From a virus: a stretch of 43,174 nucleotides of DNA. A program made the translations under genes and the position numbers. The notes below the pieces were generated by a model. The model did no database searches and was not told the origin of the DNA. It saw nothing but the letters and a program-made list of their open reading frames with translations. Where the stretch lies: the IMG/VR virus record IMGVR_UViG_3300029914_000057, positions 1 through 43,174 of that record, one strand, 5' to 3'. Each line of letters begins with the position of its first letter. Position 1 is the stretch's first letter. Below, piece after piece: positions 28,945 through 43,174 of this stretch.

Positions 28945-28956
28945 GTTACTCCTGAT

Positions 28957-29801: not shown

Positions 29802-30016
29802 TCTGATAATCTTTCAACTAAGTTTTCATTGATCTTATCGGCCGCATCTTTCCAGGCATCGCTAGATGTTTTACTCCATTTCGATAGCGGATAAGGAAAT
29901 ACATCTACTATATTAGCATACTTCTCAATGCGCCAACCATTAAACAGTGGGCTGAGATAGGCTCGCGCATATGGATATTGAGCGAGAACAATTTTTTTAT
30001 TCGGGTTCTGCATCAT
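29798..30016 (-). CDS. Small array paralogue
   Basis: 72 residues from the ATG at 30016 (MMQNPNKKIVLAQYPYARAY), chosen because it overlaps the upstream stop as in the rest of the array. C-terminal block TSSDAWKDAADKINENLVER and L-S-E. Confidence 0.76.
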   Translation of the reverse strand: MMQNPNKKIVLAQYPYARAYLSPLFNGWRIEKYANIVDVFPYPLSKWSKTSSDAWKDAADKINENLVERLSE

Positions 30017-30225
30017 TCTGATAGACATCGTAAAAATTGCCATTCGATCCTTTCAATTGTATCTTCCCATGCAAATTCTTCGTCACACCCCCAACTTGAC
30101 AGCGTCGCGCCGGAATTATTTTGAAGTATTCTCCAGATCGGCTTGCCTGTGACGGGTGAACGGCCAGATACCGCAATCGCGTCCGGATAAACTGCCCGGA
30201 CGCGATTTATTAGTACGCTTTTCAT
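30013..30225 (-). CDS. Small array paralogue, first of the minus-strand array
   Basis: 70 residues: MKSVLINRVRAVYPDAIAVS, then DEEFAWEDTIERIEWQFLRC and L-S-E. Its start overlaps the stop of the 392-residue gene (TAATG), so the whole array is translationally coupled to that early gene. Confidence 0.77.
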   Translation of the reverse strand: MKSVLINRVRAVYPDAIAVSGRSPVTGKPIWRILQNNSGATLSSWGCDEEFAWEDTIERIEWQFLRCLSE

Positions 30226-31403: not shown

Positions 31404-31409
31404 GATTTA

Positions 31410-31438
31410 AATATACAAGAATACGATACACTTGTCAA
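31410..31438 (-). promoter_or_regulatory. Consensus early promoter, minus strand
   Basis: TTGACA (31433-31438), a 17-nt spacer and TATATT (31410-31415). The -10 ends 6 nt before the start codon at 31403, so transcription should begin on the A of ATG. Confidence 0.85.
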
Positions 31439-31504
31439 CCACTATTTTCAGATTTTTAAGTTGTTGATTTTAAAGGGCCGATATCGTAAATATGGCGCCG
31501 TATG

Positions 31505-31564
31505 GCCCCAATATGACCCCAGGAGTAGCTGAGTACCATCATTATAGTGGGGTCATATTGGGGC
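31505..31564. repeat. Perfect inverted repeat, 17-bp arms
   Basis: GCCCCAATATGACCCCA (31505-31521) and its complement (31548-31564) are separated by 26 nt. Pairing continues outward after one mismatch. No T-run follows, so it is not a standard terminator; an operator or origin element is more likely. Confidence 0.85.
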
Positions 31565-31621
31565 GATATAAGTCCTTTGTTTTCAATGGCGCATTTTTCT
31601 TGGTTTTTAGGCTGATTTCGC

Positions 31622-31650
31622 TTGCATTCGGTACCGGAGTTTGCTATACT
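31622..31650 (+). promoter_or_regulatory. Early promoter P1, plus strand
   Basis: TTGCAT (31622-31627), a 17-nt spacer and TATACT (31645-31650). It is the upstream one of two promoters for the AAA+ gene. Confidence 0.7.
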
Positions 31651-31694
31651 TATTTTAGTGAATGGAACAGAGCTAACGAAGCAGAAGTTGGCTG

Positions 31695-31723
31695 TTGACA
31701 AGAATCAGGAACTTTGCTACACT
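31695..31723 (+). promoter_or_regulatory. Early promoter P2, plus strand
   Basis: TTGACA (31695-31700), a 17-nt spacer and TACACT (31718-31723). The leader of about 22 nt contains AAAGGGG before the AAA+ start. Confidence 0.8.
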
Positions 31724-31751
31724 TAACAAGTAGTGAAAGGGGTAACACCGC

Positions 31752-32789
31752 ATGGCAACAGTGAAAATCATTCAGGGTTCGTATCGCAACCAGGAAATCA
31801 AAAACCAAACGTTTACGCTGATTAATGGGTACGTGGAAACGCCGAATTCGAAGCATGTTACGGTCGAAGGAACAAAACTTTGTGGCCGTCCGACAGCTCG
31901 AATTCGCGTGAAGAGCCAGAAGGATTTTGTCATTGCCGGCACGGTTGAAACGGTTGATGATCAGATTTCTGTTGAAGAGGAATCCTCTGAGCCGGAAGTT
32001 GTTGAAACAGATGCAGCCGTACTTGCGCGTATCAGTGATAGGTTTCAGATTTTAACTGAACTGACCCAGGGTGCTCTCACTGGAGATATTCGCGCATTGT
32101 TTGTAACCGGCGCCCCGGGAGTTGGAAAGACTTTCGGTGTTGAAAAGACGCTGCAAGATGCGGGGTTGGTTGAAATTTTTTCCGATCTTCCTCCTCGGTA
32201 TGAAGTTATTTCTGGTGCAATGTCTGCGGTCGGTATGTATATGAAGTTGTACGAATTCCGTGACGATAACAATGTTCTCGTCATTGACGATTGCGATTCG
32301 GTTTTTACCGACGAACTTTGCTTGAACCTGCTGAAAGCTGCATTGGATACGAGCAAGCGCCGCATGATTCACTGGAACGTGGATTCGGTTTCACTTCGGA
32401 AGGGTGATTGCCCTAACCAATTTGAGTTCAAGGGTTCTATTATCTTCATTTCGAACATTAACTTCAAGAAGGTTCGTTCTGAGCGTATGCGTAACCATCT
32501 CGAGGCCCTCATGAGCCGTTCGCATTTTCTTGATCTTACTGTTCATACGGATCGCGAAAAGTTGCTCAGAATTGAAGACCTGGTTACGAATCATAAGATG
32601 CTTTCCCAGTTCAAACTGTCCGATAAAATGAGCGCAAAGGTTATGAAGTTCGTGCGTGATAACGCTTCGAAATTTAACGAGCTTAGCCTGCGCACTGTCA
32701 TTAAATTGGCCGGTCTCGCCAGGACGTTCGACGAGAATGACAAGTGGATGCGAGTTGCTGAACTTTCTATGATGGGAAACCAATTTTAA
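31752..32789 (+). CDS. AAA+ ATPase, early
   Basis: 345 residues. A beta-rich N-terminal region (residues 1-65) and an acidic linker (EEESSEPEVVE) precede an AAA+ core: Walker A GAPGVGKT at 120-127, Walker B VLVIDDCDS from 175, sensor-like FKGSIIFISNINF near 225 and a helical lid. Single-subunit AAA+ proteins like this are common in large phages but their clients are unknown. It opens the plus-strand early operon, has relatively high G+C, and ends inside a 40-bp palindrome. Confidence 0.85.
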   Translation: MATVKIIQGSYRNQEIKNQTFTLINGYVETPNSKHVTVEGTKLCGRPTARIRVKSQKDFVIAGTVETVDDQISVEEESSEPEVVETDAAVLARISDRFQILTELTQGALTGDIRALFVTGAPGVGKTFGVEKTLQDAGLVEIFSDLPPRYEVISGAMSAVGMYMKLYEFRDDNNVLVIDDCDSVFTDELCLNLLKAALDTSKRRMIHWNVDSVSLRKGDCPNQFEFKGSIIFISNINFKKVRSERMRNHLEALMSRSHFLDLTVHTDREKLLRIEDLVTNHKMLSQFKLSDKMSAKVMKFVRDNASKFNELSLRTVIKLAGLARTFDENDKWMRVAELSMMGNQF

Positions 32790-32822
32790 AATAGTGGGAT
32801 TTAAATCCCACTATTTTAAAAT
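32783..32822. terminator. 40-bp perfect palindrome, probable terminator or attenuator
   Basis: ATTTTAAAATAGTGGGATTT and its exact complement form a perfect palindrome that includes the stop codon of the AAA+ gene. T-rich on both sides, it should reduce read-through into the small genes that follow. Confidence 0.75.
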
Positions 32823-32838
32823 TAAAGGAGATGCTTAA

Positions 32839-33036
32839 ATGAAAAATGGTGTTTACGAGATTACCGATCCTATCAATGTTAAGAAGGTTTCGGATGAATT
32901 GGGCAACATTGTTACCGGTAAGGGTGGCGCTGAAATTAACATTAATGGAATTACCATTGCAGGTAATAGAGTTACCATTCGATGGGACAACCTATCTAGA
33001 GAGGTAAATATGGTTGTTTTGTCGTCTGCTAATTGA
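32839..33036 (+). CDS. Small hypothetical protein
   Basis: 65 residues (MKNGVYEITDPINVKKVSDE, then ININGITIAGNRVTIRWDN), predicted beta-rich. AAAGGAG precedes the start by 7-8 nt. It follows the palindrome after the AAA+ gene. After its TGA stop the same frame continues for 15 codons with C-S-S-C-G, a zinc-ribbon-like remnant. Function unknown. Confidence 0.65.
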   Translation: MKNGVYEITDPINVKKVSDELGNIVTGKGGAEININGITIAGNRVTIRWDNLSREVNMVVLSSAN

Positions 33037-33234
33037 GACGTCTGTTCTTCTTGCGGTCAAAATATGAACGCCGAAAACCTATAATTAAATGGCAAACAAA
33101 ACAGATAAGAATGCGAAAATTTAAGTTATTCTAGCTAGTTAAGTCGAATGCAAGATTAATGAGATGCGTGTTGCTGCTCTTTTTTGAAGAGTGGGAAACA
33201 ATTTTAATCCATTAATTAAAGAAAGGATTGTATT

Positions 33235-33735
33235 ATGGTAAAATATTTAATACTCGCCTACAAGGCTGATAATGAAGATTACTGTATGGGGTGTCACGTG
33301 GCCTCCTACTCGTCCGATTTTCAGTATTTAAATACCACCGACCGCGAGGAGGCTCTTCGTTTCCTTGTGGATAAAATTACTTACAAAGTCGAGGACCGCG
33401 AATATGGCTATGACTTTACCATTTTCATCGATGGCAAGACCTCGGAGTACAACAATCTTAATGGTGAAACTACAGATTATGACAATCTTATCACCAATTC
33501 CGAAGGTGAGTATGACTACGACGAAGAGCCCGGTCGAAAACTCATGGCTGATGCAAGAGCCACGATTAAGCGTAACGAATTCGACGCGTTGGCAAAGGCC
33601 GCGGCCGCCGCACGCCGAGCTCAAACCGAGGCGGAAGAAGCATATAAGATTGAAGAAGCACGTAAAGAGCGGGAGAGGGAAGCGCATGATCGGAAAGAAT
33701 TCGAACGCCTAACAGCAAAATTTGGCGGTAAATAA
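33235..33735 (+). CDS. Acidic protein with C-terminal charged helix
   Basis: 166 residues. The N-terminal part (MVKYLILAYKADNEDYCMGC, then YLNTTDREEALRFLVDKIT) looks like a small alpha/beta fold. Residues 115-166 form a long charged helix rich in Ala, Glu, Arg and Lys (AKAAAAARRAQTEAEEAYK), probably a coiled coil. AAAGGA precedes the start. Codon use and G+C resemble the AAA+ gene. No family recognised. Confidence 0.7.
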   Translation: MVKYLILAYKADNEDYCMGCHVASYSSDFQYLNTTDREEALRFLVDKITYKVEDREYGYDFTIFIDGKTSEYNNLNGETTDYDNLITNSEGEYDYDEEPGRKLMADARATIKRNEFDALAKAAAAARRAQTEAEEAYKIEEARKEREREAHDRKEFERLTAKFGGK

Positions 33736-33917
33736 TGAAACGATTGATTGCTTTTTGGAAAGCGCTAACCGGTGGATACGATTGCCAGGTATGCGGGCGA
33801 TCGGGGTGTAAGCCCGTTGACTATACCGATGGTTCAACTCATTGGAGTTGTTATAATGGATGCCGTTATTGGGAGTACGACGACGGCACCATCGAACGTA
33901 TGCTAGACGGCCTGTAA
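33735..33917 (+). CDS. Small zinc-ribbon-like protein
   Basis: 60 residues with C-Q-V-C, a further Cys (RSGC) and WSCYNGC, spaced as in small zinc-binding domains, followed by an acidic end. The start overlaps the previous stop (TAATG). Function unknown; nucleic-acid or protein binding is possible. Confidence 0.65.
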   Translation: MKRLIAFWKALTGGYDCQVCGRSGCKPVDYTDGSTHWSCYNGCRYWEYDDGTIERMLDGL

Positions 33918-33967
33918 AAACATTTTGGAATTGCCCAAGGTAGAAAGAAGGATTATGTTCTTCATTA

Positions 33968-34204
33968 ATGGCAAATAATTTGGGAAAGTCGAATATAATG
34001 GCATCGAAGATTTCGCAGTATGCAAAAGAACAAGTAAAATACCACTATCCCACCGCCCGAGTGATGCGCTGTGGATCCTGGTGTAAAATAATAACACACC
34101 TCGGTAAACCATTGCAGCCAGCTTGGAGTTCAAATTCCAATCGTACTTGGAGGGAAACATGGATCTGCTTGCAGGAGCTACTATTGAAGAGATTATCTCA
34201 GTAG
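33968..34204 (+). CDS. Small array paralogue, first of the plus-strand array
   Basis: Up to 78 residues. The family core begins near QYAKEQVKYHYPTARVMR and ends TWRETWICLQELLLKRLSQ. The start is uncertain: ATG 33968 and 33998 both lack a good ribosome site, and the strong AGAAGGA upstream serves an ATG at 33955 that opens only a 7-codon frame (MFFINGK). Re-initiation after this mini-frame would be possible. Function unknown. Confidence 0.65.
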   Translation: MANNLGKSNIMASKISQYAKEQVKYHYPTARVMRCGSWCKIITHLGKPLQPAWSSNSNRTWRETWICLQELLLKRLSQ

Positions 34205-34413
34205 AAGCGAAGAATAAAATTCTTGCAATGTTTCCGAATGCCGTTACGAAAAAGGCATATCTCTTAGACAATGGATATCGAATTGTTGAATCCAATGCCA
34301 ACTATCCTACTAGCACATTGCTTTCTGATAAATTTTCGCATTCAATAGATACTGCCTGGATAGATTCTTGGTATTATATTCAGGAAAAGATAGTAGAAAG
34401 ATTGTCGATATGA
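34159..34413 (+). CDS. Small array paralogue with N-terminal extension
   Basis: 84 residues from the ATG at 34159 (MDLLAGATIEEIISVEAKNK), chosen because GGAGG lies 6 nt upstream; it overlaps the previous gene by 46 nt. The family motif is KILAMFPNAVTKK and the C-terminal block DTAWIDSWYYIQEKIVERLS. The extra N-terminal 20 residues are translated over the end of the previous paralogue. Confidence 0.7.
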   Translation: MDLLAGATIEEIISVEAKNKILAMFPNAVTKKAYLLDNGYRIVESNANYPTSTLLSDKFSHSIDTAWIDSWYYIQEKIVERLSI

Positions 34414-34640
34414 CCGAAGCAGAAAGAAAAATGCGAGAATTTAGACCCGGATGTTATTTAAAATACAATCCTTCCGGTAGATTTCAAATTCATCGATCCA
34501 ATTTGTCTTGGTATGCCGGGTATACTGGATATAATGCACTTGGCATCGAATCAAAAACCAAGGACGGTGCCTGGGAAAACGCATTATCATTATATCAATT
34601 GGGTGAAGATCTATTGTTAATTCGGGTATTAAGCCAATGA
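34410..34640 (+). CDS. Small array paralogue
   Basis: 76 residues from the ATG at 34410 (MTEAERKMREFRPGCYLKYN), overlapping the preceding stop as ATGA. C-terminal block TKDGAWENALSLYQLGEDLL, ending V-L-S-Q. The IYP motif is replaced by F-R-P. Confidence 0.73.
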   Translation: MTEAERKMREFRPGCYLKYNPSGRFQIHRSNLSWYAGYTGYNALGIESKTKDGAWENALSLYQLGEDLLLIRVLSQ

Positions 34641-34846
34641 ATTACAAAGCAAAAGTTAGGGAAATTTATCCCAAGGCAAATTGGATATTCGAGATTAGAA
34701 CTTCTAACGGCGAACAAAAAATTTTATTTAGGATTTTTTTAACTCCGACTCGATCTCTGTATCCGGCTGATAAAAACCTAGAACTTGCATGGAAAAATGC
34801 ATATGAGCATTGCGAGCAAGAATTGTTAAAACGATTGGAGCAATAA
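34637..34846 (+). CDS. Small array paralogue
   Basis: 69 residues: MNYKAKVREIYPKANWIFEI at the start and NLELAWKNAYEHCEQELLKR with L-E-Q at the end. ATGA overlap upstream and TAATG downstream. Its M-N-Y-K start matches the minus-strand member at 28463-28687, tying the two arrays together. Confidence 0.78.
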   Translation: MNYKAKVREIYPKANWIFEIRTSNGEQKILFRIFLTPTRSLYPADKNLELAWKNAYEHCEQELLKRLEQ

Positions 34847-35094
34847 TGTCTTCTCCGAAACAACGGATGATTAAAGAAAAAGTCGTTAAAATTTACCCTG
34901 ATGCCAAATTGCGTCGCAAGTATGGAATATATTATCGAGTTTTTCGCTCGCCTATGCTAGATTCTTGGATGGAGGAACCAGGCCTATTAACTTTTTGCAC
35001 CCCAATTGATGGTTGGTTCAGATCATCCGACAAGGCGTGGGAGTATGCCTGGAAAGAAATACAAACAGATTTAATTGAGAGGTTTGCATATTGA
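34846..35094 (+). CDS. Small array paralogue, last of the plus-strand array
   Basis: 82 residues from the ATG at 34846 (MSSPKQRMIKEKVVKIYPDA), sharing the A of the previous TAA stop. C-terminal block SSDKAWEYAWKEIQTDLIER. It has a longer middle (about 35 residues) than most members. Confidence 0.78.
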   Translation: MSSPKQRMIKEKVVKIYPDAKLRRKYGIYYRVFRSPMLDSWMEEPGLLTFCTPIDGWFRSSDKAWEYAWKEIQTDLIERFAY

Positions 35095-35606
35095 AAAATA
35101 TTTTTCTATCTTCAGATGCCCATTTTTCGCATCGTAACATTATTAAGTATTGCGATAGACCATTTTTTTATGTCGAAGAAATGAATGAGCGACTCATTCA
35201 GAACTGGAATGAGGTTGTTCGAAATGATGATGAAGTTTATTATTTAGGTGATTTTGGATTACACAGTCCTGAAGTGCTTATGCCATTTAGAAATCGATTA
35301 AATGGTAATTGGAAAATGTTTATCGGCGGCAATCATGATCGAAATTCATTATTGCAAAGTCCGGGACTAGCCGAGCAAGTAGTTAAATTCAGTGAGAAAA
35401 AAGTTGTTAATTTTGAACTAGACGGTATTCCTTTATGGTTAAGTCATTGCCCAGCAAATGTTCTACCTAACGATCCAATTAATCTTTACGGGCACACTCA
35501 CGATCATGTTCCTATGCTAGCGGGTAACAACCGTAAAATTAACATTGGGGTTGACGCTTGGAATTTATATCCAGTAGCTTGGGAGCAAATTAAAGCCTTG
35601 CTATAA
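35091..35606 (+). CDS. Calcineurin-like metallophosphoesterase
   Basis: 171 residues with SSDAHFSHRN (residues 7-16), YYLGDFG, GGNHDRN, LSHCP and GHTHDH, the full metal-binding set of small phosphoesterases of the type found in many phages and bacteria. The start is TTG at 35091, overlapping the previous stop as TTGA. It closes the plus-strand early operon. Substrate unknown; a nucleotide or cyclic-nucleotide signal would be worth testing given its early context. Confidence 0.88.
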   Translation: MKNIFLSSDAHFSHRNIIKYCDRPFFYVEEMNERLIQNWNEVVRNDDEVYYLGDFGLHSPEVLMPFRNRLNGNWKMFIGGNHDRNSLLQSPGLAEQVVKFSEKKVVNFELDGIPLWLSHCPANVLPNDPINLYGHTHDHVPMLAGNNRKINIGVDAWNLYPVAWEQIKALL

Positions 35607-35608
35607 TT

Positions 35609-36217
35609 TTAGGAGCCCTCTTCAATATTAAAATAGTTAGATGCATCCTGAATATAATACCGACTTAACGCAAAATAATTTCCATGAATAATAATTTCAT
35701 TGCCGGAGGCTAACGCTTCCGGCAAATTGTCGTGTCTAAAACCCAAATTCTTAATGAAAGTTAATGCTTCTTCATGTGTTGGAATATTTCCGCGTTTTGA
35801 AAATGGATTTCTCGGGGCAATCCAATTATGTAATTCTTTTTGAACAAGTCGACTAATACCGATATCCGAAACATGCTGACTCCAAGTAAAAGAAAATCCA
35901 TCCTCTGGAAAAATCAAATATGGATTTCCGAATAGGTAGACTTCTGTTATATTTGGTGTGCAGCTTCTTGAATTTGATCTTAACGCGGTAAATCCGTTTG
36001 TTTTAAGAATATGATCCAGCATCGCCTGCTCTTGTAATGATTGCCCTAGCGGCATTCTAGTATTAGGTGTCGCCGCATTAAAAAATGGTTTTCTTGTATC
36101 AATACCACGATATAAAAATGTATTAGCGGCTTTGACACCGGAAATAAATTCCTTACAGGAATCATTTATTCGGGTTAATGTATCATTTATACTGATTTCA
36201 AATTCGTCGGCTTTCAT
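35609..36217 (-). CDS. ADP-ribosyltransferase-like protein, paralogue 1
   Basis: 202 residues. Three blocks shared with the other paralogues resemble the mono-ADP-ribosyltransferase order R / S-x-S / E: FLYRGI with Arg37, LRSNSRSCT at 80-87, and GNEIIIHGNYFAL with Glu174. Between them is the family hallmark YLIFPEDGFSFTWSQHVSDI. The catalytic assignment is inferred from this order, not proven. The N-terminus (MKADEFEIS) lacks the I-x-E pattern of the others. GCTAAATA lies 5 nt before the ATG. It converges with the phosphoesterase gene, 2 nt away. Confidence 0.6.
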   Translation of the reverse strand: MKADEFEISINDTLTRINDSCKEFISGVKAANTFLYRGIDTRKPFFNAATPNTRMPLGQSLQEQAMLDHILKTNGFTALRSNSRSCTPNITEVYLFGNPYLIFPEDGFSFTWSQHVSDIGISRLVQKELHNWIAPRNPFSKRGNIPTHEEALTFIKNLGFRHDNLPEALASGNEIIIHGNYFALSRYYIQDASNYFNIEEGS

Positions 36218-36222
36218 GTAAT

Positions 36223-36230
36223 TATTTAGC
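36223..36230 (-). promoter_or_regulatory. Late-like motif GCTAAATA, 5 nt before ATG
   Basis: Keeps the TAAATA core of the late consensus; same spacing as at the other island genes. Confidence 0.4.
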
Positions 36231-36334
36231 TCGATTACGAGATAAGCCCGTATTGTTCTTAAGAGCCACGGATGTAGCGAGTTAGAATTAAGATATACCT
36301 TTTAAGCTCTTAATTGTTATATTTTTCATAAATG

Positions 36335-36342
36335 GCTAAATA
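36335..36342 (+). promoter_or_regulatory. Late-like motif GCTAAATA, 5 nt before the tnpB ATG
   Basis: Same core and spacing as before the phage genes of the island. It may be accidental in such AT-rich sequence or show that the relic is transcribed late. Confidence 0.3.
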
Positions 36343-36347
36343 TATTT

Positions 36348-36530
36348 ATGTTCAAGTCATTCAAATATCGATTAACTCCAACCAAAGAACAAGAGAAAAC
36401 TCTTGTGGAATGGCAAGGGCAGTTGAGATTTGTTTGGAATAATTTTCTTAAGCAAAATATTGATAGATATCAATTGGAAAAGAGATTCATCTTGGAAACA
36501 GGAAGCCACTTCTCTTTAGAGAAGTGGTAG
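36348..36530 (+). pseudogene. tnpB: tnpB remnant, internally deleted
   Basis: MFKSFKYRLTPTKEQEKTLV followed by RFVWNNFLKQN is the helical N-terminus of IS605-family TnpB, the RNA-guided nuclease ancestral to Cas12. After about residue 46 the frame jumps into the right-end sequence (GSHFSLEKW), so the RuvC and zinc-ribbon domains (about 350 residues) are gone. It cannot be a nuclease. The deletion has left the frame open to a TAG within the right end. Confidence 0.85.
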
Positions 36531-36535
36531 TTCAC
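36506..36535 (+). ncRNA. IS605-type right-end hairpin, 3' end of a former omega RNA
   Basis: CCACTTCTC / TTTA loop / GAGAAGTGG is a perfect 9-bp stem followed by TAGTTCAC. In IS605-type elements this hairpin is both the transposition right end and the 3' end of the TnpB guide-RNA scaffold; sequence after 36535 would be the guide. Here it is a relic. Confidence 0.7.
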
Positions 36536-36550
36536 CGAATTACCTCATCG

Positions 36551-36558
36551 CATAAATA
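36551..36558 (+). promoter_or_regulatory. Late-type motif CATAAATA, 5 nt before ATG
   Basis: One mismatch from TATAAATA and 5 nt before the start of the split ADP-ribosyltransferase-like gene. Confidence 0.5.
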
Positions 36559-36563
36559 TCTAT

Positions 36564-37489
36564 ATGACAACTTTTCCAGAACTTAATCCAGGCGAAACGA
36601 CAAGTTTTCCGAGAGGACAGGCCCCCGAAATTCAAGCCAATCTTTTTTCAACGTATTCTAGGGTTGATAGAAACAGACTTATACAAGTGTGCAAATTTAT
36701 CGAAGAACATTGCTCCGAATTTTTAGCATCGGCCAAAGCCGCCAATAGATTTTTATATCGAGGAATTAAAACTTATGATTCGCCTTCAAAAATTTTTTTA
36801 GGCAGCCCACGCAATGACCGACGTTCTAGAGATACCGATCCAGCGGTTCAGTTAATAGTCGATGAATATTTAACATTGCAAGGATTTAAAGCACTACGAT
36901 CAAATAGTATTTTTTGCACTGGAGAAGAGCAGAATGCGTTGACATATGGCGATCCATATATTATTTTTCCTATTAATGGATTTGAGTATACCTAGAGCAT
37001 CTTGATTGGGTTATTCAACCGCGCTTCTTATCCCCGAATTATAGTGCCCTGCGAAATATTTTTAACGACATCTATTATAGTACCCGAGACGATACACACA
37101 AGGCAACCCTTGCAAATATTGCTATAAAAAATGCTGTGGAAATATATGTTAAGCCTTTTACGTGGGGCGGTAGCGGAGATGGCTATTTTTATGATCTTGC
37201 CCAGTTAAGAAAGTTTATGCAAATTGCTGCAAAATTATCGGCAACTGTTGAAGAAGTTCGTCATTATTTTACACCCGAATTAAGAGCAAAAATTAATAGA
37301 CTAATATCAAATTCACTTAATCCAAAAATTGCATCCCAACAATTTGTCAAACTGAATAAATTATTGAAAACTCGGCTAGATACCGCGATTAAATTAGATC
37401 ACGAAGTTATGATTCACGGTTCGTACGTAGCAGTAGAGTCAAATAAATTTAATGAAGCATTGGGTCAATATTTTCTTAATATTAATTAG
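36564..37489 (+). pseudogene. ADP-ribosyltransferase-like paralogue 2, split by a frameshift
   Basis: The first frame (143 codons) carries FLYRGI, DRRSRDTDPAVQL, ALRSNSIFCTG and YIIFPINGFEYT, and stops at TAG exactly where the paralogues read T-W-S. The sequence resumes in another frame about 10 nt later (HLDWVIQPRFLSPNYSALRN) and runs to 37489 with DTAIKLDHEVMIHGSYVAV, the third family block. A short deletion in the T-W-S codons explains both. The C-terminal part has an extra region of about 100 residues compared with the other copies. Stop at 37489 overlaps the convergent kinase stop by 4 nt. Programmed frameshifting is less likely, as no slippery run is seen. Confidence 0.75.
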
Positions 37490-38175
37490 GGCCGCCTACC
37501 AGAAAGTTTTGGATATTTTCTACCTATTCCCGCAATAGCTTTTGTTTTAACACCCTTCATAATAGATTGCGCTTCTGGACTATTTGGAGACAGCAGGAAA
37601 TTATTTAATTTTCTGCGGGCAATATCTAGATCTTGATCAATCATATTTTCATTATTCTGTACTAACGAAAAATATCGCCCAAATAATAATTCATATAATG
37701 CTATATTCTGTTTAACAGAAGAATATGCTTCCTGGAAATAATCAAGGTCTACTTTGCGTTTATCTGCACGATCTAGTGCCGTTTGATATCTTGATTCTAT
37801 TCTCGCTCTTGCAATAGATTCGTCAACGTCTACAAATATCATGAATGTTTGATAATAACATTCTTTTAATTTTTTGTTCAATCGAATTATTACGTCTGCA
37901 TTTCTTCCGGTAGTATTAATAATTAATCCTAAATAATCATTGGCCCATAGATTAAAACGTTTTTCGGTAGTTTTACCGGCTGTCTCATAATCTGATAATG
38001 TTTTTAAATGTAGTTTGGTTCGATCTATATCTAATTGTTTGAATCCTCGGGTCTCGAGACCAAATTCTTTTTCAATGGTAGTTTTTCCACTACCGGGCGA
38101 CCCGACTAAAAATATAGCCTTAAAGTTAAAATTATCGTGGACGCCCTCATTTAAAATCGCTTCAGATATTTTCAT
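37486..38175 (-). CDS. P-loop kinase with capsid-targeting-like N-terminus
   Basis: 229 residues. MKISEAILNEG at the start fits M-K-I-x-E. Walker A GSPGSGKT is at 25-32, then LDIDRTKLHL (substrate-side Asp) and MIFVDVDESIARARIESRYQ, a lid with several arginines, as in AAA_33/zeta-toxin-type small-molecule or nucleic-acid kinases. The C-terminus is basic (KAIAGIGRKYPKLSGRR). ACTAAATA lies 5 nt before the ATG. With late expression and an I-x-E N-terminus it may be packaged with the DNA. The substrate is unknown. Confidence 0.72.
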   Translation of the reverse strand: MKISEAILNEGVHDNFNFKAIFLVGSPGSGKTTIEKEFGLETRGFKQLDIDRTKLHLKTLSDYETAGKTTEKRFNLWANDYLGLIINTTGRNADVIIRLNKKLKECYYQTFMIFVDVDESIARARIESRYQTALDRADKRKVDLDYFQEAYSSVKQNIALYELLFGRYFSLVQNNENMIDQDLDIARRKLNNFLLSPNSPEAQSIMKGVKTKAIAGIGRKYPKLSGRRP

Positions 38176-38180
38176 ATTAA

Positions 38181-38188
38181 TATTTAGT
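38181..38188 (-). promoter_or_regulatory. Late-like motif ACTAAATA, 5 nt before ATG
   Basis: Lies directly after the stop of the neighbouring ADP-ribosyltransferase-like gene and 5 nt before the kinase start. Confidence 0.4.
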
Positions 38189-38857
38189 CTAGTCTGTTAT
38201 GCCAAAATATTTTCTAGCTGCCTCGCCATACAACGACCCACTAATAGCGATGTATTGGCCATTGATTATTATTTCGTTTCCAATTCTAAGAGCCATATCA
38301 AAATGCTTATTGCCGAAAAATTCCCATTTATCAACAAATTTTTTAGCTTCATCACGGGTGATAGCATCTATTCTTCTCGAATCATTAAAATCTTTTAGTT
38401 CCCAATATAGATTGGAATTACTTCCGATATCCTTAATTCTTGCACTCCAGGTAAAATTAAAACCTGTCAACGGAAAAATTAAATAAGTTGCTCCAAATGA
38501 CATTTCCACTTTCGACGTGGTACAAATAGAATTTTTTCGTAGGGCGGGAAAGTTATTCAATTCAAATATATGATCCAAGAGTTGTTGTCCATATGGGCTA
38601 GCCCATATGGACAACCTACTTATGGGTGTAAGCCCGTGGAAAATAACAGGCCGGTTACTGATACCTCCAATACCCCGATATAAAAAGGTATTATTCTTCT
38701 GCATAATAGGTAGTACATCACAATGTGTTGTTATAAAATCGAGAACTTTTTCTAATTTTTCTGAGTTGTAATTTTTAATGCCACCGTAGTTATCGGCCCA
38801 GTCATCTACTGTACTGGTATTAATGTCACTCGGATTTATTATTTCGTATATTTTCAT
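38189..38857 (-). CDS. ADP-ribosyltransferase-like protein, paralogue 3
   Basis: 222 residues starting MKIYEIINPSD (M-K-I-x-E). Family blocks: FLYRGI with Arg61, ALRKNSICTTS at 105-115, YLIFPLTGFNFTWSARIKDI at 125-144, and GNEIIINGQYIAI with Glu195. A perfect 32-bp palindrome lies in the segment coding for residues about 82-92, where the protein has a few residues more than its neighbour copy. It follows paralogue 4 after 6 nt without a clear ribosome site, in a three-gene tandem. ADP-ribosyl transfer is inferred. Confidence 0.62.
   Translation of the reverse strand: MKIYEIINPSDINTSTVDDWADNYGGIKNYNSEKLEKVLDFITTHCDVLPIMQKNNTFLYRGIGGISNRPVIFHGLTPISRLSIWASPYGQQLLDHIFELNNFPALRKNSICTTSKVEMSFGATYLIFPLTGFNFTWSARIKDIGSNSNLYWELKDFNDSRRIDAITRDEAKKFVDKWEFFGNKHFDMALRIGNEIIINGQYIAISGSLYGEAARKYFGITD
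38584..38615. repeat. 32-bp perfect palindrome inside a coding sequence
   Basis: GTTGTCCATATGGGCT and its exact complement abut. One half codes S-P-Y-G-Q-Q, the part that matches the paralogue; the other codes the extra L-S-I-W-A. Confidence 0.85.
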
Positions 38858-38862
38858 TGTAC

Positions 38863-39537
38863 CTAGCCTGTTATCCCAAAATATTCTTTAACTGCATAGA
38901 TATATGGATAATCTGATGATTTAATAGCAACATATTGCCCATTAATTGTAATTTCATTACCTACCCAAAGAGCTTGATCGAAATTATTATTTCGAAAGTC
39001 CCACTTTTTAATAAATTTATTTGCGGCATCCTGGTCTAATCGATTAATTCCTATATAGGAATTATATAATTTTTTCAGCTCATTATAAATTTCATTATTA
39101 CCACCTACATCTTTTATAATTTTGCTCCAGGTAAAATTAAATCCATTCACCGGAAAAATATAATATATTTTTCCAAAATTTACATATTCATCGGGTTTGG
39201 TAGTTGCACATATTGAATTTCTTCTTAATGAAATAAATCCTGTTAGCTTAAATATTTTATCTAATATCCATTGTTGATCTTTTCCCATACCATACGGTTC
39301 CCGCGTAACCGGGGTCGCCCCCAGAAAAATAGTCGGCGAGGGCGCGTTAATTCCGCGATATAAAAATTTATTCTTTGATTGCATATCTTTTACGGCCTGA
39401 CTACAATGTTTAGATATAAATTCGAAAACATGTTCCAATTTTTCTTGCTCGTAATTTTTAAAACCACCAAACCCGTTGGTCCAAACATCGAGGTTATCCT
39501 CGTCTTCAATTGGTTTCAATAATTCGAATATTTTCAT
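38863..39537 (-). CDS. ADP-ribosyltransferase-like protein, paralogue 4
   Basis: 224 residues starting MKIFELLKPIEDED (M-K-I-x-E). Family blocks: FLYRGI with Arg61, SLRRNSICATT, YYIFPVNGFNFTWSKIIKDV and GNEITINGQYVAI. It is the closest relative of paralogue 3 by length and N-terminus (both have a W-x-x-x-x-GG-x-KNY segment near residue 20-30). The start overlaps the upstream stop (TAATG) and has AGGAATATA before it. Substrate and activity are untested. Confidence 0.62.
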   Translation of the reverse strand: MKIFELLKPIEDEDNLDVWTNGFGGFKNYEQEKLEHVFEFISKHCSQAVKDMQSKNKFLYRGINAPSPTIFLGATPVTREPYGMGKDQQWILDKIFKLTGFISLRRNSICATTKPDEYVNFGKIYYIFPVNGFNFTWSKIIKDVGGNNEIYNELKKLYNSYIGINRLDQDAANKFIKKWDFRNNNFDQALWVGNEITINGQYVAIKSSDYPYIYAVKEYFGITG

Positions 39538-40184
39538 TATATTCCTATACCAAATCGTTTTACTAGTTCGGTATGATACTTATCGGCCAATGCGATATAT
39601 TGACCATGAATAGTAATTTCATTTTTACTGTGCAGAGCCATTGCAAAATTATTTTTTGAGAATTGCCAGTATTTAACAAATTTTTTTGGAGAACTAACTA
39701 GCTTTTCGCGTGCCAACGAACTTGCCAATTCGTTATTTGCTCCAATATCTTCAATTTTTGGACTCCATGTAAAATCAAAACCCTTAACGGGAAAAATATG
39801 ATATAATTTACCGAATCCGTATAAATCTGTATTGCTGCCCGTGCAACAGATGCTATTTGAGCGTAATGAAGAAAATCCACACTGTTGTAATATTTTATCT
39901 AACAGCGGTTGATCATATTCCGCGCTGTATGATTCACGCGCTGTCGGCGTTATACCATGAAATACATTGGGTACGCCAACATCATACCCTATTCGACGAT
40001 ATAAAAATGTTTGCGTATCTTGCATGGCTGTAACAGCTTTTTTACAGTGCTTATCAATAAAATTCATTATTTCTCTAGTAGGAGAGTTGTATACTTTTTG
40101 CCCGCCATGCGTTTCATCCCATAAGTCATCCGGATTCTCTTTTTCAAAATCTTTAAATGGTTTCATTAATTTATTTAGTCGCAT
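39537..40184 (-). CDS. ADP-ribosyltransferase-like protein, paralogue 5
   Basis: 215 residues from the ATG at 40184 (MRLNKLMKPFKDFE), which aligns with the MKIFELLKPI start of paralogue 4 but has Lys in place of Glu, so the proposed cleavage site is lost. Family blocks: FLYRRI with Arg63, SLRSNSICCTGS, YHIFPVKGFDFTWSPKIEDI and KNEITIHGQYIAL. A start at 40166 (MKPFKDFE) is possible; it too has a TAAATA motif 5 nt upstream. First gene of the three-gene tandem. Confidence 0.6.
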   Translation of the reverse strand: MRLNKLMKPFKDFEKENPDDLWDETHGGQKVYNSPTREIMNFIDKHCKKAVTAMQDTQTFLYRRIGYDVGVPNVFHGITPTARESYSAEYDQPLLDKILQQCGFSSLRSNSICCTGSNTDLYGFGKLYHIFPVKGFDFTWSPKIEDIGANNELASSLAREKLVSSPKKFVKYWQFSKNNFAMALHSKNEITIHGQYIALADKYHTELVKRFGIGI

Positions 40185-40188
40185 ATTA

Positions 40189-40196
40189 TATTTATT
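40189..40196 (-). promoter_or_regulatory. Late-type motif AATAAATA, 4 nt before ATG
   Basis: Faces paralogue 5 and overlaps by 2 nt the -35 of the divergent exonuclease promoter, so early and late use of this spot may exclude each other. Confidence 0.4.
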
Positions 40197-40224
40197 GACT
40201 TTTATTAGAAATATAATGTATAAT
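40195..40224 (+). promoter_or_regulatory. Sigma70-type promoter, TATAAT 6 nt before ATG
   Basis: TTGACT (40195-40200), an 18-nt spacer and TATAAT (40219-40224). Transcription should start on the ATG at 40231. Confidence 0.75.
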
Positions 40225-40230
40225 AAAAAC

Positions 40231-40776
40231 ATGAAGAATTATACAAATATTATGCTCGATCTCGAGACCTGTGGAACTATTCCAAATGCGAAAGTATTAT
40301 CAATTTCTGCGGTAGCATTTGATCCGTTTGATTATACAGCAGATTTATCAGATAATCCAACCTTAGATTTATTGCTGTCTTTAGACGATCAGGAGAATCG
40401 TTATGAAGATCCCGCAACTCTAGAGTGGTGGGCCAAGCAAGATCCATCGGTTATTGAAAAGATTTTCAGCGATACCGGACGGGTATCAGTTGAACATGCA
40501 CTAGCCCAGTTAACCAAATTTGTATGGAATAAGGACCGACTTTGGGCACAAGGAATCGCAGTTGATTTTCCAATGCTTGATAATTTATATCGAGAACACA
40601 GCAAGAATATTCCTTGGCAGTATTGGCGTGTAACAGATAGCAGAACATTACGTGCATTGACGACTACACAAGAATATCCGGCTAGTCATGACTCGCTCGA
40701 CGATTGCCGTCAGCAAATTAGAGCAGTCACAGAAGCATTGCATAAATTGGGTGTTGAAGAATTTTCCCGCAAGTAA
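40231..40776 (+). CDS. DEDDh 3'-5' exonuclease (DexA/Rv2179c-like)
   Basis: 181 residues from the ATG at 40231. The DEDDh residues are visible: Asp10 and Glu12 in IMLDLETCG, Asp112 in GIAVDFPML, and His153/Asp158 in SHDSLDDC, with TDSRTLR before the last motif, as in phage and bacterial members of the Rv2179c-like group and T4 DexA. It removes nucleotides from 3' ends of DNA or RNA. A longer reading frame upstream is rejected: it crosses the promoter and the divergent gene. A palindromic terminator follows. Confidence 0.88.
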   Translation: MKNYTNIMLDLETCGTIPNAKVLSISAVAFDPFDYTADLSDNPTLDLLLSLDDQENRYEDPATLEWWAKQDPSVIEKIFSDTGRVSVEHALAQLTKFVWNKDRLWAQGIAVDFPMLDNLYREHSKNIPWQYWRVTDSRTLRALTTTQEYPASHDSLDDCRQQIRAVTEALHKLGVEEFSRK

Positions 40777-40795
40777 TTTGCTATATAAGACAAGT

Positions 40796-40817
40796 GAAGG
40801 AGCCAATTGGCTCCTTC
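40796..40817. terminator. 22-bp palindromic terminator
   Basis: GAAGGAGCCAA and its exact complement form a perfect palindrome between the convergent exonuclease gene and the minus-strand gene ending at 40819. Confidence 0.75.
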
Positions 40818-40818
40818 C

Positions 40819-41541
40819 TTAGTCTGTGACTTTAATTCCGTTTGGCCCTAGATTTCCGCTAACGCCTATTTTTGATAACTCTAAGGTATTAGGATGATTG
40901 CCGAAATATCTGAACAATAGGTGCTCAATATCTTTATATTGTCCAATTTCTAATGCACTACTAAATTCTTCTAACATTAGATTATACCGATAAAAGACCA
41001 ACGCTGTTCGATCAGCCGGCCAACTCCACAATCTCGACATAAACTGAAAATTTAACCCACCGGTAACCTGTGCTGGAAATTGGCTATTTCTTCGGGCGGC
41101 AAACATATATTTGTTCCTATGTTCAAACGTTTCCACTGAGAACCCGTCGGATAAAAAATACCTTCCACTCAATTTAAATACTCGATCAATATTTTCTAAT
41201 AATTTCGGCCGGCTAACTACAAAATCTAAGGTCTTACCAGTTACAAGTAATTCTGTATACGATTTTACAACATCCCAATTATCGGTTGATTTATAAATTT
41301 GTTGAACCTGGATATCGGTATTATAATTAATAAGTCCTAATAGATACGGTTTAAGAATTGCAGATTCTTCTTCTGTAATACTGCTTTCCCCACTGCTTTC
41401 GGAAAGAATAATTTGCGCATCGGGAATTTTATCTTTCACACTTTTTAATGTATTAATAGTTTGCTCTAATCGTTGTTCGGCAGAATAGACACCATGCTTG
41501 GTATGCAATGCGCTACCGATTAAAAATAAAGTTTTGATCAT
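40819..41541 (-). CDS. Possible glycan-related protein, glycosyltransferase-like
   Basis: 240 residues. It starts with a Rossmann-like strand (IKTLFLIGSALHTKHGVYS), has AQIILSESSGES, and in the middle FKLSGRYFLSDGF, a K-x-S-G-R-Y-x-L motif that I associate with proteins of polysaccharide gene clusters. No nucleotide-sugar DxD motif is certain. It follows its upstream neighbour by 1 nt with a GGAG site, so the two are made together, perhaps acting on cell-surface, virion or DNA sugars. Tentative. Confidence 0.45.
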   Translation of the reverse strand: MIKTLFLIGSALHTKHGVYSAEQRLEQTINTLKSVKDKIPDAQIILSESSGESSITEEESAILKPYLLGLINYNTDIQVQQIYKSTDNWDVVKSYTELLVTGKTLDFVVSRPKLLENIDRVFKLSGRYFLSDGFSVETFEHRNKYMFAARRNSQFPAQVTGGLNFQFMSRLWSWPADRTALVFYRYNLMLEEFSSALEIGQYKDIEHLLFRYFGNHPNTLELSKIGVSGNLGPNGIKVTD

Positions 41542-41542
41542 A

Positions 41543-42382
41543 TTACTCCAAATTGAAAAGATATGGATTAGCCTGCGCCAATCGATTTCTATAAAAAATA
41601 TAATGTTCTAATAATTCATGGCGCCCACCGGAGATTGCCGCGGTTTTTATGTCGGACAACGAGCGCAGTTCATCTAAGATATGAGGCGGCAATTTTGTTT
41701 TATTTAGTAATTCATCCCGTGTATAACGGTAATGTTCTACCTTTATATTATGATTTGTATTAATAAAGACACTAAACAGCCGTTCTACGACAAAGGTAAA
41801 ATAAGGGAGTGCGGCGTTAGGTCCATAATGAGCGGCGGTTTTAAACATCATATCGTAATCGGCTGAATCCGTTTTTACCATATCGATAAAAAACTTTAAA
41901 AAATCAATATACTGTTTCCAAAATATTTTATTTCCAACAAAATAATTACAAAGCGCGAATGTCTCTGAATCCATCCAAAGTTTATTTAAATCTACAGATA
42001 TGTGCATCTTATTAAGATTTCGTTGAATCAAATCTTTTAGTCCGGGATGACAATTCTCGCCTTGAGTAATTACACTAGGAGATAGACTTTCATTAATCGG
42101 AGTTGGATTAATAAAATAGACATCGGCTCGATTCGGATCTATTTCGATAAAATCGATAAATTGCTGGCCAGTAATATTAGTCTTTGCTTCAAACTTTGGA
42201 CTAACAAATCCCCATAGATCTAATCCGTGCTGTAATGCATATGTCTGTCCTGGTTCAAAAGATTGGTATTCACATAATTCGGGATGCAAATTTTCTAAAT
42301 TATTATAGGGAACAAACGGCAATTTAACTTTTTCCAGTTGTTCCTTTAGATAACATATTTGATATACTTGTATTTTGCTCAT
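41543..42382 (-). CDS. Possible glycosyltransferase-like protein (DUF4422-like end)
   Basis: 279 residues. The N-terminus IQVYQICYLKEQLEKVKLPF with YALQHGLDLWGFVSPKF, and the C-terminal LCNYFVGNKIFWKQY-like segment (ALCNYFVGNKIFWKQYIDF) followed by LPYFTFVVERLFSVFI, match the layout of capsule-type glycosyltransferase-associated proteins such as DUF4422. The D-P-N-R-A-D-V region may hold acidic ligands. The promoter has an extended -10 (TGCTATAAT) 5 nt before the ATG and no ribosome site. First gene of a two-gene unit. Confidence 0.5.
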   Translation of the reverse strand: MSKIQVYQICYLKEQLEKVKLPFVPYNNLENLHPELCEYQSFEPGQTYALQHGLDLWGFVSPKFEAKTNITGQQFIDFIEIDPNRADVYFINPTPINESLSPSVITQGENCHPGLKDLIQRNLNKMHISVDLNKLWMDSETFALCNYFVGNKIFWKQYIDFLKFFIDMVKTDSADYDMMFKTAAHYGPNAALPYFTFVVERLFSVFINTNHNIKVEHYRYTRDELLNKTKLPPHILDELRSLSDIKTAAISGGRHELLEHYIFYRNRLAQANPYLFNLE

Positions 42383-42387
42383 GTAAT

Positions 42388-42396
42388 ATTATAGCA
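42388..42396 (-). promoter_or_regulatory. Extended -10 promoter, TATAAT 5 nt before ATG
   Basis: TGCTATAAT on the minus strand; no good -35 is visible. The spacing again predicts a leaderless mRNA for the gene starting at 42382. Confidence 0.5.
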
Positions 42397-42402
42397 CATT
42401 GA

Positions 42403-42410
42403 AATAAATA
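42403..42410 (+). promoter_or_regulatory. Late-type motif AATAAATA, 5 nt before ATG
   Basis: One mismatch from TATAAATA, 5 nt before the nucleotidyltransferase-like start, without a ribosome site. Confidence 0.45.
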
Positions 42411-42415
42411 CTTAT

Positions 42416-43126
42416 ATGAAAATTGCAGAATTATTATTTGAGGGTGGTAATGCCTTTGTTGGCGACTTAGCTGTAATTCGTATTGCTAGAGCCCAAGTAA
42501 AACCTACGGTCGCTTTTCTAGAGGGTATTACCGGTCTCTCGCTTTTGAATAACATGCTCGGATCAACGGGTATTAAAGAAACGAGTGGAGATATCGATCT
42601 AGCAGTTGATAGGTCGGAAATAACTAAAGATGAATTATTAGTTACTATCAGACAATGGACAGATGCTCATAATATGACGGCCGTTATGCCTGCAAAAAAA
42701 TTAGGCAGTAGTGTAACGATGCGTTGCCCGATCTCTGGCAACCCGAAAAATGGTTTCGTTCAGGTAGATTTAATGTTTGTATCCGACATTGAATTTGCGA
42801 GATGGGCAATTCGTGCGAATCCTGATAGTAAATATAAAAATCTAGTAAAGAATAAGCTATTATATAATCTTGCAAAGTCGATGAATTTACGATATCAAGA
42901 GCAGGAAGGATTAACTACTCTTGACACAAAGAAACTTCTTAAAAATGGCAATAATCCAGATTTCATTGCGAAAAAATTATTGAATGCTAAAGCAACGAGA
43001 AAAGATATTGAGTCAGTTGAAAGTATAATGGCTGCATTGAAAAATGATCCTAAAAAAGAGGAAAAACTTCGATTTGCTTATCCTGCGGTATTGGCAGAAG
43101 TCGGAGTTGATTTGAGATCGATATGA
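42416..43126 (+). CDS. Nucleotidyltransferase-like protein with capsid-targeting-like N-terminus
   Basis: 236 residues starting MKIAELLFEGG (M-K-I-x-E). The polymerase-beta-type nucleotidyltransferase signature is present: G49-S50, then D-I-D-L with Asp59 and Asp61, and a third acidic residue Asp118 in FVQVDLMFV. The helical C-terminus contains KLLYNLAKSMNLRY and repeated Lys/Asp-rich helices. Such enzymes transfer nucleotides to RNA, proteins or antibiotics; MNT-type toxin-antitoxin modules and tRNA-modifying enzymes share the core. A late-type motif precedes it directly. It overlaps the next gene as ATGA. Confidence 0.72.
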   Translation: MKIAELLFEGGNAFVGDLAVIRIARAQVKPTVAFLEGITGLSLLNNMLGSTGIKETSGDIDLAVDRSEITKDELLVTIRQWTDAHNMTAVMPAKKLGSSVTMRCPISGNPKNGFVQVDLMFVSDIEFARWAIRANPDSKYKNLVKNKLLYNLAKSMNLRYQEQEGLTTLDTKKLLKNGNNPDFIAKKLLNAKATRKDIESVESIMAALKNDPKKEEKLRFAYPAVLAEVGVDLRSI

Positions 43127-43174
43127 AAATATGCGAAATTGAGAACTCAACTCCTCTGGAACGATTGGAGATGG
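43123..43174 (+). CDS. Start of a further M-K-I-x-E protein, cut by the window edge
   Basis: ATG at 43123 overlaps the preceding stop (ATGA). The 17 visible codons read MKICEIENSTPLERLEM, again with M-K-I-x-E at the N-terminus. Nothing more can be said. Confidence 0.6.
   Translation, partial: MKICEIENSTPLERLEM

Follow-up and report, generated by a model that had tools for sequence, protein, structure and literature searches.

An island of ADP-ribosyltransferase-like paralogues, a kinase and a nucleotidyltransferase, probably packaged in the head of a large T4-like phage

Presented here is an analysis of a 43,174-nucleotide stretch of viral DNA (IMG/VR record IMGVR_UViG_3300029914_000057, positions 1 to 43,174; hereafter the window). 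Its right end holds six paralogues that resemble ADP-ribosyltransferases (ARTs), one of them broken and one cut by the edge, together with a zeta-toxin-type kinase and a nucleotidyltransferase with a Pol beta-like fold. The reading favored here, with a probability of roughly 0.65, is that this island, at least partly late-expressed, encodes enzymes that are packaged in the head of a large T4-like phage by way of cleavable leaders and injected with the DNA. The leader would end in [L/I]-x-E, after five residues in ART paralogues 3, 4 and 6 and after nine or ten in the nucleotidyltransferase and the kinase. It would bind the enzyme to the prohead core, a gp21-like S77 protease would cut after its glutamate during head maturation, and the freed enzyme would stay in the head until it is injected together with the DNA. 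In the new host, NAD+-dependent modification of host molecules would fall to the ART-like proteins, and the kinase and the nucleotidyltransferase would act alongside them. Sequence and models support the families, the ART-like and Pol beta-like folds, the leader motif, the protease gene and the L-x-E sites of the capsid proteins, from which packaging, cleavage, injection, NAD use and targets are inferred. Packaging is less sure for ART paralogues 1, 2 and 5 because the motif is absent from them.

The gene island

The relevant features of the window are as follows.

35609-36217, minus strand: ART-like paralogue 1, 202 residues, beginning MKADEFE (PHROG_11975, 3.2e-22; TAAATA-N5-ATG)
36564-36995, plus strand: ART-like paralogue 2, 5' part of the broken copy, start MTTFP (PHROG_11975, 1.2e-29)
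37136-37489, plus strand: ART-like paralogue 2, 3' part, in a different reading frame and with the E block (PHROG_11975, 0.0053, a weak match)
37486-38175, minus strand: zeta-toxin-type P-loop kinase (PF06414, 5e-13)
38146-38175, minus strand: candidate 10-residue head-targeting leader of the kinase (leader motif)
38189-38857, minus strand: ART-like paralogue 3, start MKIYE then I (PHROG match and alignment)
38863-39537, minus strand: ART-like paralogue 4, start MKIFE then L (alignment and AlphaFold2 model with an ART-like fold)
39537-40184, minus strand: ART-like paralogue 5, start MRLNKLMKPFK (the open reading frame is listed from 40232; TAAATA 4 nt upstream of the ATG)
42416-43126, plus strand: Pol-beta-fold nucleotidyltransferase (fold and motif; TAAATA-N5-ATG)
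42416-42442, plus strand: candidate 9-residue head-targeting leader of the nucleotidyltransferase (leader motif)
43123-43174, plus strand: 5' end of the sixth ART-like paralogue, start MKICE then I (complete in locus L008, 2511-3107)
5212-5583, minus strand: 123-residue protein distant from the island, leader MRIIELFE then D (TAAATA 17 nt upstream)

A first-pass annotation of the window had described five paralogues with arginine, serine and glutamate blocks in mono-ART order. The blocks are indeed present in that order; the copy beginning at 36564, however, is broken, and the E block mostly lacks E-x-E. This second paralogue (36564 to 37489, plus strand) is disrupted by a stop and a frame change within its FTWS block, and the open frame of its 3' part extends further upstream. 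The gene cut by the right edge starts with M-K-I-x-E as claimed (MKICE) and is itself the sixth ART paralogue. Taken as a whole, the observations of that annotation are confirmed in part and its interpretation is partly supported.

Leader sequences

Starts of the form M-[KR]-I-x-E had been noted in six genes (38189-38857, 38863-39537, 37486-38175, 42416-43126, the right-edge gene and 5212-5583), and all six have one. Within the window, [L/I]-x-E lies near the N-terminus of ART paralogues 3, 4 and 6, the kinase, the nucleotidyltransferase and the 5212-5583 protein. The pattern M[KR][IL]xE, counted so that A, V or L was also accepted after the methionine, opens 55 of 103 ART genes of related viral contigs, genes alike in their final 60 residues being counted once, compared with 0 of 424 internal methionines. 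For the other genes of the same contigs, the corresponding values are 28 of 550 starts and 7 of 2226 internal methionines. In T4 they are 2 of 146 and 0 of 639, and for the non-ART genes of the window's own phage, represented by contig G001 and two pieces of contig G004, 6 of 134 and 2 of 562. Duplicates sharing a stretch were removed from the tag counts and from the kinase and nucleotidyltransferase counts given below. With one exception, a tag was counted at any of the first three ATGs in a 35-codon stretch, a rule that makes tags easier to find. The exception is a count in which the first ATG was taken blind to the motif: the pattern fits 48 of the 85 ART genes counted, with a variable residue at position 4 and with glutamate at position 5 in 62 of the 85, a further 25 ART genes being left out as unresolved.

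A stricter tag, M[KR]x(2,3)[EQ]hhxE, is found at 13 of 103 ART starts, at five of 550 starts of other contig genes and at none of 2650 internal methionines. With alanine admitted after the methionine, it picks out three of 172 T4 starts (gp24, IPII and IPIII) versus 0 of 647 internal methionines; the alanine was admitted once gp24 had been seen, and the T4 result is otherwise two of 172. All three proteins are given as gp21-cleaved in a passage of PMC9958956, and cleavage of gp24 by gp21 is also described in PMC9026906. The latter source also gives the T4 cleavage motif of gp21 as L/I-X-E, and the first ten residues of IPIII as a head-targeting sequence in which residues 4 and 7 serve mainly targeting and residues 8 and 10 processing. 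An initial tag pattern, with a hydrophobic residue before [LI]xE, missed the array of phage Atu_ph07 described below and was replaced. Two loose patterns are not used as evidence: M[KR] followed by [LIVF]xE, with 43 matches among 550 other contig genes versus 54 among 2226 internal methionines and with 11 among 172 T4 starts, and any [LI]xE ending at residues 5-13, which is found in 37 of 146 T4 genes. The idea of an I/L-x-E leader has gained support from two unrelated enzyme families, from the capsid proteins and, more weakly, from the T4 control.

The kinase and the nucleotidyltransferase

The product of 37486-38175 matches PF06414 with 49.4 bits (cut-off 22.3). Its leader, MKISEAILNE, is followed by glycine, so that the candidate cleavage site lies after residue 10; there is also an I-S-E at residues 3-5. 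Relatives of the kinase and of the nucleotidyltransferase were drawn from the best 80 loci each, and are thus samples picked by similarity. Among 73 distinct kinase relatives, [LI]xE lies exactly 15 residues upstream of the P-loop in 64, with glycine next in 61 of the 64. The positional entropy across 71 relatives is 3.1-3.6 bits upstream of the site, 1.44 at P3 (L/I/V), 3.23 at P2, 0.11 at P1 and 0.25 at P1'; P1 is glutamate in 70 of the 71 and P1' glycine in 68. The P-loop itself is conserved in the kinase neighbors of ART-like genes.

In 15 kinase relatives, over 100 residues of open frame precede the P-loop, and 14 of these keep [LI]xE then glycine at the same place; the lengths are those of open frames and not measured from called start codons. 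Searches of the long frames with the nucleotidyltransferase and ART profiles gave no match. Open frames of 1134-1319 residues hold the kinase in loci L124, L145, L150, L151, L170, L172 and L184, and may be polyproteins that are cut in the prohead. In L145 and L150 there is a cytidylyltransferase-like part besides the kinase, and in L124, L151, L172 and L184 a ligase-like module with EKLDGQN begins after an [LI]xE followed by GG. A further kinase relative, in L094 2194-10145 (Pelagibacter phage HTVC008M), begins MIPFILKE then GLYDP and adjoins a gene with a HIGH-type nucleotidyltransferase-like start, with other leader-like starts nearby; the set therefore reaches cultured marine T4-like phages.

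The nucleotidyltransferase leader is MKIAELLFE, followed by GGNAF, which places the candidate cleavage site after residue 9; again there is a second match, I-A-E, at residues 3-5. The modeled fold is Pol beta-like: re-alignment with VIA gives a Z of 10.4 to Pol beta, and 315 of 999 chains have a Z of at least 8. The G-S/T...D-x-D motif is in place, with Gly 49, Asp 59 and Asp 61 invariant in 26 rows. A search of the PDB sequences with the family profile returned only five weak histidine-kinase rows. Directly before the GG, [LI]xE is found in 66 of 72 relatives, and in 49 of the 72 the nearest start codon is five residues upstream of the GG, which is the length of the ART leader. Three rows without GG..F (L100, L107 and L188) stand outside the 72, and two of them have LLE then GG. 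The model has a predicted local distance difference test (pLDDT) score below 50 for residues 1-10, which is not used as evidence because the alignment rows begin at the GG.

In Sinorhizobium phage Phosso the homologue has M-GG as its sole possible start, since no ATG, GTG or TTG follows the upstream stop. The absence of a leader there indicates that the leader is dispensable for the nucleotidyltransferase fold. The Atu_ph07 nucleotidyltransferase is also annotated from M-GG, with upstream TTG codons as a possible alternative start. Note that the label "protein-modifying", which had been extended to the kinase and the nucleotidyltransferase, is unsupported or overstated for these two.

The prohead protease and the capsid protein

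The window is identical to G001 (105 kb) over 42,931 bases and 99.995% identical to contig G002; G001 in turn overlaps G004 by 45,871 bases at 99.998%. The contigs bear different sample numbers, so that assigning the window and G004 to the same phage rests on sequence identity. G004 carries an S77 protease of the gp21 type (1.2e-24) and a gp23-type capsid gene (5.8e-97). The lack of a prohead protease had been named beforehand as a result that would tell against packaging; a gp21-like S77 protease was found by way of these contigs, which overlap at 99.998-100%. An S77 protease is present in four of ten records searched and in Atu_ph07; its absence from the other six means little because these records, 61-137 kb, may be fragments. 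All five gp23-type capsid proteins inspected (from the window's phage, Atu_ph07, SCTP-2 and two more contigs) have L-x-E just upstream of [NS]AT. SCTP-2 was considered as the carrier of a second ART array and rejected, as none of eight other proteins around gene 445 has a YRG block.

Adjoining the protease and capsid gene of G004 is a row of small genes (L083 3264-5794 and 9532-9882). Their products start with MNLLEEIQNYRGILIE then G and similar sequences, or with forms of MNLLEEIQxYRxIL.E, after which several have S or G. They are probably internal head or core proteins with 16-residue leaders.

The ADP-ribosyltransferase-like family

In a five-row alignment, in which the fifth copy is represented by its 5' part only, identity of the window copies to the first row is 37-39%, and FLYR, R-x-N-S and FP..GF..T are common to them. 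An alignment of 39 members, comprising four window copies and 35 of 45 candidates, shows Arg 61, Arg 79, Arg 105 and Ser 108 to be invariant and Glu 195 nearly so; S-N-S is the commonest form of S-x-S in the family. The copies match PHROG_11975, to which no function is assigned, and no Pfam family; most of them, as well as the kinase, also match PHROG_12810. Pfam searches with all 39 members gave a best E of 0.0074 and no family in more than two members, the family profile found nothing among the PDB sequences up to an E of 1, and a scan of bacterial genomes with one ART protein found no relative.

The AlphaFold2 model of paralogue 4 has a pLDDT of 86.7 and a predicted template modeling score of 0.84, with residues 1-23 below a pLDDT of 50. 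Re-alignment with VIA of 475 Foldseek candidates gave 27 chains, from 24 entries, with a Z of at least 2. The top row is 2aua, a protein of no known function, with a Z of 6.4, and the next is Arr at 4.5. Of the 24 entries, 23 contain a protein of the ART superfamily, among them Arr, DarT, KptA/Tpt1, diphtheria and pertussis toxins, OspC3/CopC, SopF, PltA and TreX; for 7yk3 and 9gco the matched chain was deduced. A search of a viral structure library with the same model yielded 28 matches at E of 0.001 or less, five of which are Atu_ph07 proteins, including a zeta-toxin fusion. The assignment rests on the VIA re-alignment and the motifs, Foldseek having recognized no ART. A non-ART fold had been considered as grounds for abandoning the proposal; the structural re-alignment points instead to ADP-ribosyltransferases. 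On the basis of the model, an ART fold is well supported and not proven, because no VIA Z reaches 8.

The residue two positions before the glutamate of the E block is glycine in 44 of 93 members, glutamate in seven and glutamine in none, such that the E/Q-x-E of the Arg/Asn type is mostly absent and E-x-E chemistry is not supported; 24 of 117 rows failed the search pattern, and duplicates were removed. Sequence kinship to Alt and ModB is likewise unsupported. When the 39-member alignment was compared with Alt/ModA/ModB in HHalign, the probability was 0.1, that is, no detectable sequence similarity in what is, with a three-sequence template, a weak test. Since the family shows no detectable likeness to Alt, ModA or ModB and mostly lacks E/Q-x-E, its chemistry may, judging from the sequences, differ from that of ARTs that modify Arg or Asn.

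One relative, in L017 1684-3285, is a 534-residue frame with a HIGH-type nucleotidyltransferase-like start, FPGGFHP, that was recognized by eye and has no Pfam match; an ART-like domain comes next (PHROG_11975, 3.7e-27). The protein is possibly NAD-related.

The Atu_ph07 array

Eleven ART-like genes stand in tandem in phage Atu_ph07 (gp53-gp63, numbered here in agreement with the gp2 and gp128 of the published description). All eleven starts have L-x-E at residues 6-8, as in MRWEQLTE and, for gp63, MRLFQLLE; the automatic tag count gives ten of eleven because a 50-kb border splits gp63. Elsewhere in the genome, another ART-like gene starts MKWHQLTE. The gp53 protein, which matches PHROG_12810 end to end, is a fusion of an ART-like domain with a kinase and has the leader MKWNDLNE. 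According to a passage of PMC6102473, mass spectrometry identified 131 virion proteins of Atu_ph07, of which 29 come from coding sequences 31-76. The array lies inside this region of 46 genes.

The late-type promoter motif

The first-pass annotation placed a late-type motif at the start codons of almost all of the genes. This proved too generous: TAAATA lies 4-5 nt upstream of the ATG in five of ten island genes, as follows.

36223-36228, minus strand: TAAATA, 5 nt before the ATG of ART paralogue 1
36553-36558, plus strand: TAAATA, 5 nt before the ATG of ART paralogue 2
38181-38186, minus strand: TAAATA, 5 nt before the ATG of the kinase
40189-40194, minus strand: TAAATA, 4 nt before the ATG of ART paralogue 5
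42405-42410, plus strand: TAAATA, 5 nt before the ATG of the nucleotidyltransferase

The ten genes are the six ART copies, the kinase, the nucleotidyltransferase, 40819-41541 and 41543-42382; the exonuclease gene at 40225-40776 was left out. A transposase remnant within the island also has the motif. Among 21 TAAATA-to-ATG pairs in the window with a gap of 0-24 nt, nine have a gap of exactly 5 nt, the only spacing that stands out; a second, smaller peak occurs at 16-17 nt. For frames of at least 60 residues, TAAATA-N5-ATG is found in the window at 4772(-), 10311(+), 28016(-), 36228(-), 36337(+), 36553(+), 38186(-), 40177(-) and 42405(+). G001 and the unique part of G004 together have 14, L010 has four, 118 kb of T4 three and 200 kb of Atu_ph07 one. 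As a plain count, TAAATA at 2-12 nt from an ATG is not outstanding, with 11 in the window (best permuted word 10) and 17 in G001 (best 20). With the geometry of a T4-type late promoter, transcription would start at the ATG, and the TAAATA-N5-ATG genes may for this reason be late genes with leaderless mRNAs.

Alternative explanations

A number of observations weigh against packaging as proposed above. ART paralogues 1 (MKADE), 2 (MTTFP) and 5 (MRLNK) have no [L/I]-x-E in their first 25 residues, and the M[KR][IL]xE count for the ART genes of the window's own phage is weaker, at five of 14 starts versus 0 of 43 internal methionines. Position 6 of the ART leader is mostly I/L/F (65 of 85), in contrast to the G/S/N/A at other candidate sites. 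Nine of the 73 kinase relatives lack [LI]xE at the fixed place, mostly keeping E-G with V or F for L/I, and the kinase of L052 lacks it as well; the leader is also missing from the Atu_ph07 and Phosso nucleotidyltransferases. For the ART model, Foldseek gave no PDB match with an E below 0.2, and the VIA Z values are modest, the best being the 6.4 of 2aua. In Atu_ph07, the 35 other genes of coding sequences 31-76 could account for all 29 virion proteins. TAAATA is rare in the unique part of G004 that holds the protease and capsid genes (two, median word four). Finally, the tag patterns were picked after the sequences had been seen, including the alanine admitted for gp24, and the paralogues are not independent; because the patterns are post hoc and the genes related, no p-values are quoted. 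Nor does the comparison with internal methionines correct for codon preferences just downstream of start codons.

The proteins might instead be ordinary late or accessory intracellular enzymes that are never packaged, M-K-I-x-E reflecting codon preference or shared ancestry and the E-G of the kinase and nucleotidyltransferase being merely the first structured part of each domain. The shared ancestry of the paralogue starts would fit such a reading, as would the enrichment of [LI]xE near the start in ordinary genes (37 of 146 T4 starts versus 70 of 639 internally, and 133 of 550 other contig genes versus 259 of 2226), and the absence of the leader from the Atu_ph07 and Phosso nucleotidyltransferases. 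That the Phosso enzyme manages without a leader, however, argues against this reading. Furthermore, the variable leaders of three unrelated families share the [LI]-x-E end while its middle position varies, and the stricter tag picks only known gp21 substrates in T4. We consider it unlikely that the island enzymes are never packaged.

The leader might also target the head core while the ART-like proteins serve chiefly as enzymatically inactive structural proteins of the core. In favor of this, Foldseek matched the model to no close solved ART (48 PDB rows, none below an E of 0.2 and no ART recognized), and motif III is mostly without E-x-E. Yet Arg 61 and Ser 108 are invariant and Glu 195 nearly so in 39 diverged members, which structure alone would not need, and the neighbors keep the kinase P-loop and the Pol-beta carboxylates; a purely structural role seems quite improbable. 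The least probable of the explanations considered is that of toxin-antitoxin or superinfection-exclusion genes that act in the producing cell, where the zeta-type kinase would be the toxin and the ART-like proteins its partners. The Pfam zeta toxin match and the ART-like/kinase fusion in Atu_ph07 gp53 speak for it, but it leaves the leaders unexplained, and the gp53 fusion bears one also.

Other genes in and near the window

Between ART copies 1 and 2, at 36348-36545, is the remnant of an IS605-type element: 60 residues of a TnpB N-terminus (PF12323, 2.3e-14) and, after them, a stretch resembling a hairpin, CCACTTCTC...GAGAAGTGG. Just past the right edge of the window, next after the sixth ART copy, G001 43480-44979 encodes a 500-residue protein that starts MRYFELFE then SS; it has no Pfam or PHROG match. 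The region 28057-35094 encodes about eight small proteins of 69-96 residues that are alike by eye, mostly near their ends (W..A...... then RLSQ-type), and the two tested have no Pfam match. At 2-1342, a gene running off the left edge encodes a product that begins with the signal-peptide-like MRKIILSIMLACIGPFSLAQ and has no Pfam match. A megablast search of window positions 35000-43174 against phage records gave no match.

Relationship to known systems and implications

As in T4 with its Alt, ModA and ModB proteins, a T4-like phage here carries ARTs with R, S and E blocks in order and a gp21-type protease. LYRGIS is also present in ModB, and Alt has a short N-terminal I-x-E stretch (MELITE). 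The differences are that profile similarity to the T4 proteins is lacking, that most members of the window's family are without E-x-E, that a zeta-type kinase is fused or adjacent here, and that Alt is one protein of 682 residues whereas the present family forms arrays of proteins mostly of about 200-300 residues. The T4 internal proteins and gp24 likewise have a short leader ending in [LI]xE (MKTYQEFIAE in IPII/III, MAKINELLRE in gp24); the cargo here differs in consisting of recognizable enzymes in large paralogous arrays, many with leaders of just five residues.

The polyvalent proteins and head-packaged phage ARTs, as described in portions of PMC5512222 and PMC9503650, are also head-carried effector enzymes, with ARTs accompanied by other enzymes. 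Multidomain proteins occur here in relatives only (Atu_ph07 gp53, L145 and L150), whereas the window genes have one recognized domain each and their own start. According to PMC9503650 (Iyer 2022), packaging contexts account for about 44% of phage ARTs; its text contains none of the terms "paralog", "zeta", "atuph07" or "auz94". The ejection proteins of phiKZ and SPN3US, according to parts of PMC9026906 and PMC10052503, are head proteins cut after X-E, many of which are ejected with the DNA; their motif is S/A-X-E or A-X-E, in contrast to the L/I-x-E and gp23-type capsid found here. The kinase is, by profile, a P-loop kinase like zeta toxin, PezT and T4 polynucleotide kinase, and differs from them by its phage leader.

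Head-packaged ARTs are thus already known as a class, from T4 Alt and from the portion of PMC9503650 cited above. What appears to be new is the unnamed, tandemly expanded ART-like family, the [LI]xE leader end common to three enzyme families and its persistence in longer relatives. The ART-like family was not found described in the titles and abstracts searched, which did not cover preprints and most subscription journals.

A broader proposal, to which we give slightly less than even odds, is that a portable [L/I]-x-E leader acts in large T4-like phages as a general address label for arrays of single-domain enzymes: ART-like proteins, kinases, nucleotidyltransferases and probably more. The same site in relatives of 420-1300 residues would then be a prohead-protease junction at which polyproteins are diced, and the ART arrays would have diversified, so that a single virion could deliver many ARTs directed at different targets. 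Virion proteomics alone would leave the distinction between injected cargo and structural protein open. If the packaging reading is correct, a short N-terminal motif would help to pick out, from sequence, the injected ones among the many unnamed proteins of jumbo T4-like phages, and the unannotated ART-like family, with no Pfam match and PHROGs without function, would be a set of likely host-takeover enzymes.

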